DNA from: a virus
IMG/VR virus record: IMGVR_UViG_3300028025_005400
Coordinates: 1 to 25,609 of that record
Direction: 5' to 3' (one strand)
DNA length: 25,609 bases
The translations under genes and the position numbers were made by a program. How positions within the stretch are numbered: the first letter of the stretch is position 1; the number at the start of each line of letters is the position of its first letter. The notes beneath the pieces were generated by a model. That model was not told the DNA's origin and searched no databases. It saw only the letters and a list, made by a program, of their open reading frames with translations. Positions 9,993-25,553 of this stretch are shown here, piece by piece.

Positions 9993-11846
9993 ATGCCTTT
10001 AGGATATGGTTATGTAGAAAGAAATGCCGACTCATACGTTGATTGGCGTGAAGTAGGTCAGTATACTACTGATATGCTTGACGAAACTATGAGAGTTCGT
10101 CAGGAAAAAAAAGATGCTTTAGATAAAGCCACTAAAGATGCGCTTAAGCAAATATCAAATACACCTATTGGAGCACATGCAAGCGCAAGACAGTCTGCTT
10201 TAAAGATGGCTGATGTTGTTAGTAAGAATTTATTGATTCAAGAGAAGTTAATGAAAAGTGGTAGGTTAGATCCAAGGGACTATCTTATATACAATCAAAA
10301 TGCTTTAGATGGTATTGACTTAGCGTTTAACGCAAATAAAGCTTATCAAGAAAATTACCAAAAAATAATTGATGGTGTTAATTCTGAAGAGATGTCAGGG
10401 TTAACTCTTGAGAATGCCGCTATAGCAGAGTCTTATGGAGATTGGAGTACAAATGGATATATAATGTCTCCTGAAGGAAACTTAATGGTTGGTATCGAGA
10501 CAGAACAAGAGATTGATGGTAAAAAAGTCAAAAAGTTAGATAAGATAACAACTCCTACTGCTTTAAATGGTTTATTATTAAATACAATTCCTCATAATAA
10601 ATTAGAAGATAAAATAAATAAGTGGATTCCTACTTTGGGTAAAAACCAAATCGCGGCTATCCAAAAAGCAGGATATGGCAAGCAAGGAATGGTTATGACT
10701 AGAGAAGATATAACTAATAGAACAGATTTGAGCGCTGATGAAAAAACAATTTTATTTCAATTTGTTGAAGCTGAAAAATTAAAAGTAGCATCATTGTTAG
10801 GAACTCCTACAAATATAGCGTCAATTCTATTTGATACAAAAAGAACATCAGATAGTGGTATTGATTACAGTCCTACAGACGATGCTGCTGAAGCTGCTAA
10901 AGACCCAAGTAAGATATTAAGAGTTTACGATCAAAAATCAGGTACTTATGAATTTCAAGTATCTGACCAACAAAGAGCAGAAGCTGAGAAGTTTGCTTTC
11001 AATAGAATGAGAGAGAAATATGATATTATTGAGAAAGTTGATGTTGGTGGTCAATTACAAAAAGATTACGCTCCTGAGTATGTTTATAATGCAGGAAAAA
11101 CTGCTGCAAAAGAAAAAGAATTTGCTAGAAATCTTGCTCAAAATTTAGTTACTTTCATGACAGGAAATGATCAAAATTCTGTACTGTCAGGTAAATATTT
11201 ATCAGGTGTTACAAATATGGCATATAACAAAACACCGGGTGGTGCTAATGTTGTAAATAAAGATAGTAAACAACAGAATTATCAATTTGATGAAAATAAT
11301 GTATTTGGAGGAGCAAAAGCTCTTATAGGTTCAATAAAAGCAAATCTACCTGATGAATATAAAAATGTAAGTGAAGATGTTATATTGAAATATGTTAAAG
11401 AATTCCTTCCTCAAGGAGCTAAATTAAATAAAACTGCTAGCGGCCAAGGTTTTGAACCTAAACCTCAGAAACAAACAGCAGTGCAGCAATTCTCTTCTTA
11501 TATAGATGATAAGATGTCTAGACAATTAAAACCTGATGCTAAGCCTGCAAATATAGCAGCGAGTTTAAATCAAAGACTTACAGGAACAGGTTTTGAAGTA
11601 GAATCAACTTTTTTTGGGGATAATATAAAAATAGTATCTAAATCAGGAAAGGGTGCTGCGGAATCACCTAGTTTCCCGGTTGGAAATGATGCTAAAAATA
11701 AAAAAGCTTTACAAAATGCTGCAAAATGGATGAAAGCAAATCTACCTGCTAAGACAGTAGAAGGAGTTGAAGATAAAGAAGTTTACGCAGAAGAGTTAAT
11801 AGAGTCAGGAGCTCTATCAGGTGGTTTAGATTATAGTAAAAAATAA
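9993..11846 (+). CDS. Internal virion protein, T7 gp15 position (617 aa)
   Basis: I recognise no domain in this protein. It starts MPLGYGYVERNADSYVDWRE and is predicted to be mostly helical and highly charged, with long stretches of Lys, Glu, Ala and Asn. Residues 20-70 (YTTDMLDETMRVRQEKKDAL onward) look like coiled coil. A beta-containing stretch is suggested around residues 150-185 (YIMSPEGNLMVGIETEQEI). There are no membrane spans, cysteines are absent or nearly so, and no catalytic motif is visible. It sits 3 bp after the gp14-like gene and 21 bp before the giant gp16-position gene, the same order as T7 genes 14-15-16. T7 gp15 is 747 aa, so the size is compatible. The most likely role is a structural cargo protein packaged in the capsid and ejected with the DNA. 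This is inference from position. Confidence 0.5.
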   Translation: MPLGYGYVERNADSYVDWREVGQYTTDMLDETMRVRQEKKDALDKATKDALKQISNTPIGAHASARQSALKMADVVSKNLLIQEKLMKSGRLDPRDYLIYNQNALDGIDLAFNANKAYQENYQKIIDGVNSEEMSGLTLENAAIAESYGDWSTNGYIMSPEGNLMVGIETEQEIDGKKVKKLDKITTPTALNGLLLNTIPHNKLEDKINKWIPTLGKNQIAAIQKAGYGKQGMVMTREDITNRTDLSADEKTILFQFVEAEKLKVASLLGTPTNIASILFDTKRTSDSGIDYSPTDDAAEAAKDPSKILRVYDQKSGTYEFQVSDQQRAEAEKFAFNRMREKYDIIEKVDVGGQLQKDYAPEYVYNAGKTAAKEKEFARNLAQNLVTFMTGNDQNSVLSGKYLSGVTNMAYNKTPGGANVVNKDSKQQNYQFDENNVFGGAKALIGSIKANLPDEYKNVSEDVILKYVKEFLPQGAKLNKTASGQGFEPKPQKQTAVQQFSSYIDDKMSRQLKPDAKPANIAASLNQRLTGTGFEVESTFFGDNIKIVSKSGKGAAESPSFPVGNDAKNKKALQNAAKWMKANLPAKTVEGVEDKEVYAEELIESGALSGGLDYSKK

Positions 11847-20769: not shown

Positions 20770-20884
20770 TTAACATATCTTTATGTGTGTAGTGGAAGTA
20801 CTTCTCAGCATTTTCCATTGTATCATTTTTTCTCATCCATCTATGGAACTCAATAGCAAATTTATCTATTTCTTCTGTTGTCAT
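20741..20884 (-). CDS. 47-aa small protein, coupled to the SNF2-like helicase
   Basis: A short open frame fills the gap between the helicase gene and the HNH-like gene. It reads MTTEEIDKFAIEFHRWMRKN, then ENAEKYFHY and LNEFKKHYEK before TAA. Its ATG overlaps the helicase stop as ATGA, the coupling used throughout this operon, and its end overlaps the next gene by 29 bp. It is rich in charged and aromatic residues and helical, with a FHRWM segment that I think recurs in small phage proteins. No function can be assigned. The coupling and lack of any other explanation for the gap are the main support. Confidence 0.65.
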   Translation of the reverse strand: MTTEEIDKFAIEFHRWMRKNDTMENAEKYFHYTHKDMLNEFKKHYEK

Positions 20885-22383
20885 AATAATTTCTTAAAGT
20901 GAGAAAGTGTAAAATCTTTCTTTTTGGTTACTGCTTTATAAATCTCTTGTTCAATACCTCCTTTTGAGAAAATCCAAAATATCTCATTGTTTGGTCTATC
21001 TTTTGTCGTCATTCGGTCCTTGCTCTGCCAATAGCTCGTAGCACTAAAGTCAATGTTATAATACACAAGGTACTCTGCTTTCTTTAAACTTATACCCTCA
21101 CGACCCGATACAATCTGCAATGCTATGTTCTTATACGTGGCATTGAACTCATCAAGATCAGTTGTCAACTCATCTCCAAATATTTGTTGTAAAGCTACTA
21201 ATTCTTCTTTAAACTTATAGAAGATACCAATCTGACATCCTTGCCATTGTTCTTTAATAAACTCAGCCTTTGTGGTATCAAGTACCATAGACTTTCCACT
21301 CTCAAACTTCACCGTTCCTGAACACAACTGATGCACTTTACTCATCAACTTTACAGGTGTATCTCCTAAGATAACTTCTTCCTTTCCTTGAACAACTAAA
21401 TCACGCTTTAGCTTATTTATAAGCTTATAAGTTGATTCTTTTAACTCAACCTCAAATACCTCCTCGGTAGTCTCAGCAATAAATCCTGCCTCTTTCTGAG
21501 TATAGTTTATAGTGAATGGCTTCATCTCATCTATAATAGTCTCCAAACCATCTGAGTAATCATTCATAGATAAACCATTGATTATTTTAGTCTTGACATT
21601 TACAAATTTACTACAAAACTTATAGAAAGTTTTAAATTCTTTAAAAGGATTTTTCGGTATGCCATAAACTTGATGGTACATCTGTGAATATGACTCCGGA
21701 GTAGGCGTTCCTGATAGCAAAATAACATAAGGTTTATGGTAACTTATAAGTTCCCTTACTTGTTTAGCTCTATTGCTTGGTTTAGGAAAAGCACCCATAC
21801 CATGAGCTTCATCACAAATTATTAAATCCCAATGCATATCCGGATCTATCTTATGTAAACTCTCGTAGTTGATAATTGTTAAATGATAGAAAGGAGACAA
21901 CATCTCGTAGTCCCTTTGAATACTGCTAATAGCCTTCTTCTTTGTTAAAAACAAAACATTATTGGTTGAAATGTTTGATGCAATACCAAGACTTGTTAAT
22001 GTCTTTCCTGTACGCACTTCCATAGCAAGATATAAGAAGCCATGTTCCTTTATAATCTTCGTGCCTTCGTAGATTATCTTTGTTTGGTAATCTCTGAATT
22101 GTATTGTTCCACTTACTAGAACTTCTTTTACCGCCATATCTTCTTCATATAATTTTTTATAATACTCACAGCTATTAACTATTCTTTGTCTGATTTCGGA
22201 AGGAGTAGAGTGTTTGAAGCTTTTAATAACCCTAACACTCTTACCTCTGCCGACCTTGGTTTCTACCATTTGGAATACAACGCTTCTTAATAACTCGCAT
22301 TGCTTCCACATCTCATAGTTATTAAACCCTGAGTTTCTTTCGAATACATCTATCTTTTCAATGTCAGATTGCATATAGAACAT
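20881..22383 (-). CDS. SNF2-like SF2 DNA helicase/translocase (500 aa)
   Basis: This is an ATP-driven DNA translocase with all the main SF2 motifs. They are FRDYQ at 96-100, motif I VRTGKT with Lys127 of Walker A, motif II DEAH at 191-194, motif III SGTPTPES at 224-231, motif V IVSGREGISL, and motif VI QSKDR with the arginine finger at about 457. The layout and the spacing between the two RecA lobes fit SNF2-type phage helicases, which help replication or recombination. About 95 residues at the N-terminus precede the core and have no recognised domain. The start is uncertain: ATG at 22383 overlaps the zinc-ribbon gene by 34 bp, and Met4 (22374) is a possible alternative. It is followed by a coupled 47-aa gene and, further down, a VRR-NUC gene. 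Confidence 0.85.
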   Translation of the reverse strand: MFYMQSDIEKIDVFERNSGFNNYEMWKQCELLRSVVFQMVETKVGRGKSVRVIKSFKHSTPSEIRQRIVNSCEYYKKLYEEDMAVKEVLVSGTIQFRDYQTKIIYEGTKIIKEHGFLYLAMEVRTGKTLTSLGIASNISTNNVLFLTKKKAISSIQRDYEMLSPFYHLTIINYESLHKIDPDMHWDLIICDEAHGMGAFPKPSNRAKQVRELISYHKPYVILLSGTPTPESYSQMYHQVYGIPKNPFKEFKTFYKFCSKFVNVKTKIINGLSMNDYSDGLETIIDEMKPFTINYTQKEAGFIAETTEEVFEVELKESTYKLINKLKRDLVVQGKEEVILGDTPVKLMSKVHQLCSGTVKFESGKSMVLDTTKAEFIKEQWQGCQIGIFYKFKEELVALQQIFGDELTTDLDEFNATYKNIALQIVSGREGISLKKAEYLVYYNIDFSATSYWQSKDRMTTKDRPNNEIFWIFSKGGIEQEIYKAVTKKKDFTLSHFKKLL

Positions 22384-22685
22384 TTTACTTTAGCACTATA
22401 CTTTTCTATGTTAGGCATATCGCACTCGCAACACTTCTCTTTATAGCTTCCATCCTTATTGAAGGTTTTATTAATGTACTTATTTAAATCAGTGCATTTC
22501 TCATACATCTCATGCTTTTCAAAATAGTATATCATAAACTGAATACTCTTCATTGCTGTGTCCTCATCAGGGGAATGAGCAAACATTCCTATTCCTGAAT
22601 TGACTACATCTTCTACCGATGCCTTACCCATTAAAACATTGAATGAATTTATCATTCCAATGTGTACCATTTGTGTATTATTCAT
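22350..22685 (-). CDS. Zinc-ribbon protein of unknown function (111 aa)
   Basis: Residues 1-75 are helical (MIYYFEKHEMYEKCTDLNKY) and unrecognised. The last 27 residues carry two CxxC knuckles, CCEC at 85-88 and CSIC at 102-105, separated by 13 residues, the spacing of a small zinc ribbon. Such ribbons bind nucleic acid or protein partners. The gene overlaps the start of the SNF2-like helicase by 34 bp, so production of the two is probably linked, and the ribbon protein may help the helicase load. Upstream, its ATG lies inside the end of the 27-aa membrane peptide gene (8-bp overlap). The zinc ribbon is seen directly; the partnership is inferred. Confidence 0.7.
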   Translation of the reverse strand: MNNTQMVHIGMINSFNVLMGKASVEDVVNSGIGMFAHSPDEDTAMKSIQFMIYYFEKHEMYEKCTDLNKYINKTFNKDGSYKEKCCECDMPNIEKYSAKVKCSICNLTLKR

Positions 22686-22761
22686 GTGCTATTTTTAATA
22701 TTAAAAATATAGTAATAAAATAAATCATTACCAATAAAAACTTAACTATTGCTTTTTTCAT
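22678..22761 (-). CDS. 27-aa single-span membrane peptide
   Basis: A tiny frame occupies what looks like a 72-bp gap. It encodes MKKAIVKFLLVMIYFITIFL followed by ILKIAHE and TAA. The sequence is a short basic start (Lys2, Lys3), about 18 hydrophobic residues, and a short polar end: a classic one-helix membrane peptide with the positive end probably inside. Its ATG overlaps the stop of the upstream gene as ATGA, and its own end overlaps the next ATG by 8 bp, so it is locked into the coupled operon at both ends. Function is unknown. Candidates are a small regulator of an envelope protein, a superinfection-exclusion peptide, or an anchor for the replication machinery. Holin function is less likely as no lysis gene is nearby. 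Confidence 0.65.
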   Translation of the reverse strand: MKKAIVKFLLVMIYFITIFLILKIAHE

Positions 22762-22943
22762 AGTTTCTCTATTTCTTTTTTAACTTCAATCCACCATATT
22801 TGTCTAATATTGGGAACTTCAAATTGTGTTTCGTATATCAACTCATCAACTGCTATTAATGCACATTGTTTACAATTATATTCATCAATACCTGTATAAT
22901 AGAATTTACCTATTAGTTCTAATGCTTTTTCTTTTAGTGTCAT
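22758..22943 (-). CDS. Small conserved phage protein of unknown function (61 aa)
   Basis: The sequence begins MTLKEKALELIGKFYYTGID, contains CKQCALIAVDELIYE, and ends WWIEVKKEIEKL. The combination of KEKA-L, QCALIAVDE and W-x-EVK-EIEKL is one I remember as a frequent small hypothetical in Bacteroidota phages and prophages. It has two Cys as CxxC but no partner pair, so a zinc site is not certain. Predicted mostly helical. It is coupled by ATGA overlaps at both ends, to the 62-aa gene upstream and to the 27-aa membrane peptide downstream. Function unknown. Confidence 0.65.
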   Translation of the reverse strand: MTLKEKALELIGKFYYTGIDEYNCKQCALIAVDELIYETQFEVPNIRQIWWIEVKKEIEKL

Positions 22944-23128
22944 AATATCTCGTATTTAAAATTACTTGTCATTCCAATCTCATCTCCTACTTCATTACTC
23001 CATAGTCTGACATTGGTCATACCTTCTTCATTGTCTAATAACTCTATAAACCAATCTTGTTCCTCTTTGTCTTCACTCCACCAAAAGTTATCATCAACTT
23101 CTATCTCGCATTCTATTTTTATTTTCAT
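22940..23128 (-). CDS. Small acidic protein of unknown function (62 aa)
   Basis: This protein is not recognised. It opens with a beta-strand (MKIKIECEIEVDD), followed by an acidic, Trp-rich segment (NFWWSEDKEEQDWFIELLDN) and a final GMTSNFKYEIL strand. Acidic small phage proteins are sometimes DNA mimics or host-enzyme inhibitors, but nothing here proves that. The start is 1 bp after the primase-helicase stop in an 'aatATG' context, and the stop is coupled by ATGA to the next gene, so it is likely real. Confidence 0.6.
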   Translation of the reverse strand: MKIKIECEIEVDDNFWWSEDKEEQDWFIELLDNEEGMTNVRLWSNEVGDEIGMTSNFKYEIL

Positions 23129-23129
23129 A

Positions 23130-25553
23130 TTAGTTCAATTGTATTTGTGTATTATTATCTGTTCTCTTCTTGATGATTATCCATCTACCAATATGGTCTC
23201 TATCTTCCTCGGGCATAATGCCTTCTTTGTAGATAGCGTAAGCTACTAACCATTTGTAGAACTTAGTCCTGCTTACAGTCATCTTACCTCTCGATCCATA
23301 GTCCGGGTACTCATCAACAAACGCATTGTATAATTCGTTCTTGTATAGTTTCACATTCACAGGTAGCATATTGTTGCTCTCATCATTATCAACCAATCCA
23401 CACCACTCGATGAACTCATGGCAAGTCTCTGCCGATAGTTGTCGTATCTTAAGGTTTACGAACTTTGACTTAACCAATCCATATCCTAAATAGAATCTCA
23501 AACATGTAATCATGTAGTTGTCAAACTCACACCAATCATCATCGTTCCAATCGCCAAACATCATCTTACCGAAATCATCTCTTGGAGTAAAGTTCATATT
23601 ATAATACTGATGCAACTCTAACTCCCACTTTCTACGTGCAAATGAATTACCTGCTCCCTTGATAGCATAGTTAGTTGTTATAGCAACCTTTGGAGACTTA
23701 ATGAATGGTATCTTAATAGCATCTTTGTTCTTCTTCTCTAATGTCAATCCCTCTGTAATAACACTGAACAGTCTCTCGAAGTCAAAGTGTTTCTTAACAT
23801 CATCAAAACAAAGTATCTGCGTATCTGCTGATACCAACTGATAAGGGAACGACTTCTCAAAGTTGAAAGACTTACCATCAATCACTACTAACTTCTTCAT
23901 TTGAGAAAGAGCATTCATTATCAATCCCTTTCCTGTACCACCTTCAGGGTTATCACTAATAACCTCATCGTTTAGTATTACTGCCGGGCAGAAAGATAAG
24001 TTCTTGTATCCGTGCATTAAGAATCCAATAGTACTCTCCATGGTCTTGATACGACTTCCATCTCCACCATTAATGTTACTGATAAACCTTTTGAAGTCAC
24101 AATTACCTGTAACATCGCATAAGTTAAACTTCCTATCTATAACGTGGTCCTTCCATACATACCCACCTAAATCTAAATAGTCAATAGGACTAATGCCATC
24201 TTTTGAAATCTTAACAGCGCAGTTCTTGTAGTACAGGTATGCTGAATCTCTAGTGTCTGCTATGAAATATATATCTATCGTTGATAGCAAGGTTAAGAAC
24301 TCATCCTTAAAGAACCTTGTATTGTCTGCAAAGTAATTGTAAACAGACACATCATCAAGATCGATTAGGTAGTTCAGTATAAAATCTTTAATCTCTTTCT
24401 CTGATGTATTGTCTATAAGATTATTTGTAACCTTAACAAACACGTAGTTACGACTACCTTCAGGACAGAACTTATAGAACCCCGAGTCCTCTAAGAACTT
24501 CTTGAATAGTATATGCTCTATCTTTATAACTCCCTTGTCATTCTTGGTCCAAAAAGTCATCTTGGAATTTTCTTCCTCAACTTTATTTAGAACAGAATCA
24601 ATTACACCACTATCCAAATTGGAGTCTTGCAATTGGTAGCGTATATCTTTTTTTGATACACCTCTCCTTAGCTTGGCTCTTATTTGGTTTATTCTCTCCT
24701 CATCTTCGTAGTACTTAGTGCCAAAGTTAGCAGTATGCTTATACGCAGAGTCAATAGTAGCTGCAATCTCTGAAATTGGAAAGTCTTGAGTAGCGAATTG
24801 ATTAAGAACATAACCGGCAAGACTTTTGTTTATACCGAAGTCATTGAATGCCATCGCCAAGATATAAGTGTTGTGGTTTCTTTGTCCCTCATTCATAGGA
24901 TACTTCTTCTGCCACCACTTGATTAAGATTTCTACAATCTTATTCTCATCTGTAATTGGTATAGTAGCTACATCTCTAATCTTATTTACCTCTGTGTATT
25001 CAGGCTCCTCAATCACATCCCAAATAGAAGAATTGAAATTAACGTGAATTAAGGGGTCATAAGACTCGTAACATACCCTAGATAGGTTTTTACTTGTTTT
25101 ATCAAAATAAGGGCTGTTAAAATGCTTTTCAAGGCTATTGAAATAGTTTGTATGATTATCTGCATCGGCAGGTATCTTTACAAGAACTTTTAAACCATTA
25201 CCTGAAGGAGATATGAATGCCGAAAAAACATATTTGTTTTTCGATAACATTTCTTTTTCCTGCAGTAAGTCTTTCTGTTTTGCGTAGCCATCAAAGTCCA
25301 AACAGATAAGTCCCGAGTGTTGCTCAAGGGCAGTATCTAATCTTTTCTTGAATGTACCACTGAAACAAATAGCCGGTAACAACTTCTTAATCTCATTACG
25401 TTCAGATTTGTTTTTCTCTGCTCTGATACGCTTAACTATATCCTTTGTCGAATTTGTACCCTCTCTAATTCTATCAAGAATAAGCGTTACATCCCTGTAG
25501 AATGGGGTGTCAGTGTCTCTTATTGTTTTAAATATTGTTATATTGTGCGTCAT
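23130..25553 (-). CDS. Primase-helicase: VirE_N/BT4734-type primase, PriCT-like, SF3-type ATPase (807 aa)
   Basis: This is a multidomain replication initiator. Residues 1-180 are a BT4734/VirE_N domain of the archaeo-eukaryotic primase (AEP) class: motif I LDFDGY with Asp86 and Asp88, motif II SPSGNG at 115-120 followed by LKVLVKI, and motif III near NLSRVCYESYDP. Residues about 205-275 (KWWQKKYP, then NHNTYILAMAFNDFGI) look like a PriCT-type linker domain. Residues about 500-660 are a phage DUF5906/SF3-like ATPase: Walker A PEGGTGKG (Lys542), Walker B LCFDD (Asp584/Asp585), sensor Asn628 in AITTNY, and arginines 640/641 in FARRKWEL. Together these indicate primer synthesis plus unwinding in one protein, comparable with phage NrS-1-type primase-polymerase. 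It is the first gene of the minus operon. The start codon fits; 'ATGACGCAC' follows two TGTCGAT elements. Confidence 0.85.
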   Translation of the reverse strand: MTHNITIFKTIRDTDTPFYRDVTLILDRIREGTNSTKDIVKRIRAEKNKSERNEIKKLLPAICFSGTFKKRLDTALEQHSGLICLDFDGYAKQKDLLQEKEMLSKNKYVFSAFISPSGNGLKVLVKIPADADNHTNYFNSLEKHFNSPYFDKTSKNLSRVCYESYDPLIHVNFNSSIWDVIEEPEYTEVNKIRDVATIPITDENKIVEILIKWWQKKYPMNEGQRNHNTYILAMAFNDFGINKSLAGYVLNQFATQDFPISEIAATIDSAYKHTANFGTKYYEDEERINQIRAKLRRGVSKKDIRYQLQDSNLDSGVIDSVLNKVEEENSKMTFWTKNDKGVIKIEHILFKKFLEDSGFYKFCPEGSRNYVFVKVTNNLIDNTSEKEIKDFILNYLIDLDDVSVYNYFADNTRFFKDEFLTLLSTIDIYFIADTRDSAYLYYKNCAVKISKDGISPIDYLDLGGYVWKDHVIDRKFNLCDVTGNCDFKRFISNINGGDGSRIKTMESTIGFLMHGYKNLSFCPAVILNDEVISDNPEGGTGKGLIMNALSQMKKLVVIDGKSFNFEKSFPYQLVSADTQILCFDDVKKHFDFERLFSVITEGLTLEKKNKDAIKIPFIKSPKVAITTNYAIKGAGNSFARRKWELELHQYYNMNFTPRDDFGKMMFGDWNDDDWCEFDNYMITCLRFYLGYGLVKSKFVNLKIRQLSAETCHEFIEWCGLVDNDESNNMLPVNVKLYKNELYNAFVDEYPDYGSRGKMTVSRTKFYKWLVAYAIYKEGIMPEEDRDHIGRWIIIKKRTDNNTQIQLN

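Follow-up and report, generated by a model that had tools for sequence, protein, structure and literature searches.

The largest gap between genes in a 25,609-base virus record, analysed here as a whole and referred to as the window, is filled by an 84-nt reading frame, p27 (22678..22761, minus strand), which is very probably a real, translated gene. The frame itself, its overlaps with both neighbours, its conservation in other phages and the purifying selection acting on it were computed directly, and together they point to translation. With almost the same degree of probability, the predicted product is a single-span peptide of the inner membrane. The best overall explanation, which we advance tentatively and at slightly less than an even chance, is that p27 is a translationally coupled, single-helix accessory peptide of the inner membrane that binds, and so modulates, a membrane protein of the host or the phage.

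Reading frame and operon

In the window the virion genes lie on the plus strand and a compact operon on the minus strand. The operon contains, in this order, a BT4734-like primase (23130..25553; phrog_28855), a 62-aa gene (22940..23128), a 61-aa gene (22758..22943; phrog_21441), the 27-aa ORF, a 111-aa gene (22350..22685), a SNF2/ResIII-type helicase (20881..22383), and smaller genes, some of them nuclease-like. The 61-aa family is widespread, being found at 25 loci in very diverse phage contexts. The 111-aa protein ends in an invariant, zinc-ribbon-like CxC...CxxC motif, and its gene is usually found, in many relatives, ahead of the helicase. Among annotated phages, the podovirus MW202828.1 (61 kb) comes closest, with 76% identity in the primase and 61% in the helicase, and weaker primase matches occur in phages of Flavobacterium, Maribacter, Polaribacter, Cellulophaga and Bacteroides; we infer a host among the Bacteroidota.

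The p27 frame reads MKKAIVKFLLVMIYFITIFLILKIAHE (27 codons, 84 nt; minus strand, 22761..22678). It occupies a 72-nt gap, every other gap between genes of the window being 29 nt or less. Its start overlaps the stop of the 61-aa gene in a 4-nt ATGA (22758..22761), and its TAA stop overlaps the start of the 111-aa gene over 8 nt, ATGAATAA (22678..22685), such that CAT-GAA-TAA of p27 is read as ATG-AAT-AA in the following frame. These features support the placement of p27 in one operon with the primase and the helicase, coupled to both neighbours. The usual minimum length of gene callers is 90 nt, and p27 falls below it. Codons 8-22 (22696..22740) form the only hydrophobic span, with a maximum of 2.7 on the Kyte-Doolittle scale over 17 residues. 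The preliminary description of this DNA, which had proposed a one-span membrane peptide of 27 codons in an apparent gap at 22678-22761, is thus borne out in position, gap and hydropathy; its overlaps with both neighbours are also present, ATGA being the form of the upstream one only.

Homologues and their contexts

Relatives of the window were collected through the primase (80) and the helicase (11), and examined by tblastn and ORF listing. Homologues of p27 were recognized in at least 10 other phage contigs, some of them related to one another, and in 9 the frame is intact; they are 26-37 aa long and share the invariant core YFxxIxxIL (Y14, F15, I18, I21 and L22 of p27). The primase and helicase relatives contributed L032 (with a GTG start), L033, L040, L065, L112 and, with less certainty, L041, while two DNA-motif scans of IMG/VR added at least one new member, L186. 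Leave-one-out profiles recover the window peptide with E 4.5e-5 and yield 23-47 bits for all members except L041 (10.5 bits); sequences picked just for the core DNA motif, among the matches listed, reach at most 18.6 bits. A weak match in G021 (15.8 bits) was rejected, as that record offered no similarly small membrane ORF equipped with a start codon. A tblastn search of 50,697 phage records with the 27-aa peptide gave no match, and neither the window peptide nor the homologues tried gave anything better than E 0.16 in Pfam, PHROGs and NCBIfam. By its sequence, p27 forms a new family, although small accessory genes of this kind are familiar from phages.

The family persists while its surroundings change. 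In L027, a 5.6-kb contig 92-98% identical in this region (92-96% in nucleotides, 98% in the primase), the 62- and 61-aa genes are both missing, and p27 is retained with 26 of 27 residues identical (I24V), 1 nt after the primase stop and with a downstream overlap identical to that of the window. The upstream 4-nt overlap of the window recurs in L040, L041 and L065. Short overlaps are a recurrent feature, and the downstream ATGA is found in L032, L033, L040, L065 and L112, not in the window. L097 and L186 share a context unlike that of the window (an 87-aa lipoprotein-like gene, a 57/66-aa gene, the peptide and a 132-aa gene), in which the next gene lies 27-37 nt away with no overlap; in L097 the peptide is approximately 3.3 kb upstream of the primase. 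Across the family, the preceding gene is a 61-aa-type gene, a 38-aa peptide, a 70-aa gene or the primase, and the following one a 111-aa gene, a 61-aa-type gene or a 56-aa gene. Of 50 whole records searched, 9 carry the family, each in one copy; the majority of relatives that share the primase and helicase do not have it. The helicase gene also differs among these contigs: in L040 (7570-10041) intein-like splicing halves interrupt the SNF2 helicase homologue and flank an endonuclease-like ORF of the DUF559 type, an arrangement that resembles a split intein, and in L027 (1787-3438) and L042 (3762-5412) it appears as two adjacent ORFs (approximately 142 and 408 aa) instead of a single one of approximately 500 aa.

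Evidence for a coding gene

When the gap was dinucleotide-shuffled with the neighbours fixed, an ORF spanning it was obtained in 14% of cases, so that the frame alone is weak evidence. Spanning ORFs with a hydrophobic span of at least 2.0 arose in 1.1% of the shuffles, and with one of at least 2.7 in 0.04%; the case for p27 rests on this hydrophobicity and, above all, on conservation. Between homologues, synonymous substitutions predominate (pN/pS 0.42 in four independent pairs; Fisher p 2e-8, the p-value being rough because it derives from a simple count method with 22 codons per pair). The frame is thus conserved with an excess of synonymous change, as is seen in coding genes.

Relatives with stop codons in the frame had been proposed as evidence against the gene. 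The frame is intact in 10 sequences, including that of the window, and broken in one: L039 (7094-7174) has a premature TAA at codon 4, owing to a single base that differs from the intact L065, with a TTG directly after it. Since L039 and L065 are 98.5% identical over the interval, differing at 25 of 1,683 positions, this stop is best regarded as a recent loss, a polymorphism or a sequence error.

A non-coding role for the region was considered and rejected, as RNA folding is unremarkable (z −1.8), sigma-70-like promoter sites occur at chance level, and no terminator was recognized in the region. The Bacteroidetes-type promoter motif has a single occurrence in the window, far off at 10810.

Small ORFs in the gaps of related phages

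The preliminary description had considered the position of p27 among replication genes unusual. We surveyed 142 same-strand gaps of 45-120 nt at 76 related loci, taking shuffled sequences as the expectation. Spanning ATG ORFs numbered 34, against 12.6 expected; those with a membrane-like span numbered 15, against 0.20 expected, and are therefore about 75 times commoner than shuffling predicts. Five of these 15 belong to the p27 family, and the other 10 look like several unrelated families. Given this enrichment, and given that the early operons of phage SPP1 also carry small membrane ORFs (PMC6316719) and that phiNM1 Gp11 is comparable, the position of p27 is not unusual: p27 exemplifies a general tendency of these phages. 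As part of the same excess, further tiny one-span families fill gaps behind the helicase in L049, L084 and L109, and others are seen in L059 and L081. A second, unrelated one-span family of 30-32 aa (MTxxxxxxVExxAW...) occurs in the same primase-helicase interval at L035:3286-3378, L037:6426-6524 and L097:6397-6489.

It follows from the example of p27 that a gene of 26-27 codons, shorter than the usual cut-off, can be established by comparative evidence alone, and the excess of gap ORFs suggests that annotations of this large, mostly uncultured group of phages probably lack genes of this sort.

Predicted membrane topology and helix surface

Nearly all members of the family have a basic or polar N-terminus (rich in K/R in most), followed by one span and, soon after it, the end of the peptide. 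The structure predicted for the L097 homologue is a single helix of 28 residues (3-30; mean pLDDT 96), and p27 itself falls among small single-span membrane proteins, a kind and not a homologous family, defined by a length of at most 50 aa and one predicted membrane-spanning helix. The N-terminus is predicted to lie inside, by the positive-inside rule only. On the helix, the five invariant residues are confined to an arc of 120 degrees, as are approximately 3-4% of random sets, and the conservation moment has p 0.04 when calculated on the core only and 0.25-0.28 on longer stretches; a packing face is thus marginally indicated, a hint and not a proof. A holin was rejected on context: p27 does not lie in a lysis cassette with an endolysin, the neighbours being the 61-, 62- and 111-aa genes, the primase and the helicase.

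Proposed role and alternatives

Translation is coupled where the stop of one gene overlaps the start of the next, and a separation of approximately 20 nt nearly abolishes the coupling (PMC10666635). Bacteroidetes hardly use Shine-Dalgarno sites, and re-initiate at short overlaps without such motifs (PMC6728339). For these reasons re-initiation on the ATGA is the likely source of the peptide: ribosomes finishing the 61-aa gene would re-initiate on the overlapping ATG, make the 27 residues, and continue into the 111-aa gene. As a single helix, the peptide would insert in the inner membrane of the host, with its lysine-rich N-terminus inside and its C-terminus at, or slightly past, the outer face. 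There, the face formed by Y14, F15, I18, I21 and L22 may pack on a membrane-protein partner or on a second copy of p27, which would thereby modulate a membrane protein of the host, or of the phage, in early infection. We put such binding and modulation at slightly less than an even chance. The early accessory role is a suggestion, with early expression read from gene position only, and p27 would be an accessory gene that can be exchanged, and no core component of replication. If a host membrane protein is modulated, the phage sequence variants would represent a natural set of mutants with which to find the target.

Among other readings, p27 could be a host-directed inhibitor or a membrane-active small toxin, acting by depolarisation of the membrane or on a membrane protein that the host cannot do without. 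Its size, single span and operon position are like those of small hydrophobic toxins in general, and an early small membrane protein of phiNM1, Gp11 (53 aa, two spans), does block host division (PMC11237401); however, p27 matches no known toxin family in Pfam, PHROGs or NCBIfam, and early depolarisation would seem costly for a replicating phage, so that we regard this reading as unlikely. As regards a type I toxin, which is paired with an antisense RNA antitoxin, the promoter scan of the region gave no more sites than chance. Exclusion of other phages, an idea already present in the preliminary description, would here mean a block on the DNA entry of competitors, and would suit a small, patchily distributed, exchangeable membrane gene. 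Superinfection exclusion is best known from the lysogenic life style, but there is no sign of lysogeny here (the primase has six relatives in genome records, all of them in bins derived from metagenomes and none in the genome of an isolate), nor any match to a named exclusion family in the same three databases, and we consider it distinctly improbable.

It is also conceivable that the ORF serves as a bridge over the 72 nt, by which ribosomes leaving the 61-aa gene would reach the 111-aa gene in a host without use of Shine-Dalgarno sites, the peptide being secondary. The overlaps with both neighbours, the collapse of coupling at a distance of about 20 nt (PMC10666635) and the near absence of such sites in Bacteroidetes (PMC6728339) agree with this, but the selection on the amino-acid sequence does not; moreover, in records without p27 the 111-aa gene often starts right after the primase (L043, L049, L055, L061), so that no bridge is needed there, and the peptide gene has no overlap with the one that follows it in L097 or L186. 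This reading is accordingly given little credence. A broader proposal is that these phages carry a hidden layer of one-span microproteins, made up of several unrelated, exchangeable families that are fitted in by short overlaps and missed by gene callers; p27, as one of them, would recognise a specific host membrane protein through the conserved helix face and also relay ribosomes from one neighbour to the other. This proposal appears unlikely as a whole.

Membrane anchoring of the replication complex, which the preliminary description had suggested, is disfavoured. Although p27 lies between the primase and helicase genes, and the products of overlapping genes are often partners in a single complex (PMC10666635), most of the relatives that have this primase and helicase are without p27, and in L097 and L186 it is located outside the primase-helicase interval, which makes anchoring highly improbable. 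Equally remote is a chance, untranslated ORF in an AT-rich gap, for which the shuffled gaps and the L039 stop might be cited, against a frame and sequence conserved under purifying selection across changing contexts.

Comparison with known systems

The coupled accessory peptide that we favour has partial counterparts elsewhere. YohP of E. coli is, like p27, a one-span protein of 27 aa with a lysine beside the membrane, a likeness of kind; since YohP has been found experimentally to insert and dimerise (PMC7549839), the size of p27 is a workable one. The two differ in that YohP belongs to the host, is oriented N-out and has a glycine-based dimer contact, whereas p27 is devoid of glycine and its predicted orientation is N-in. 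In SPP1, the small ORFs 46.1, 50.1-51.1, 53, 30, 31.1 and 31.2 have predicted membrane segments and belong to early transcription units, one set of them being dispensable and variable between phages (PMC6316719). As short early-operon ORFs these are similar to p27 in kind, but they come from a different phage with a Bacillus host, whereas p27 has just 27 aa and lies in an apparent gap. Gp11 of phiNM1 resembles p27 as an early small membrane protein, one that acts on host proteins (PMC11237401); it differs in its greater length, its two predicted spans, its Staphylococcus host and its known targets, MurG and DivIC, so that the parallel is one of kind.
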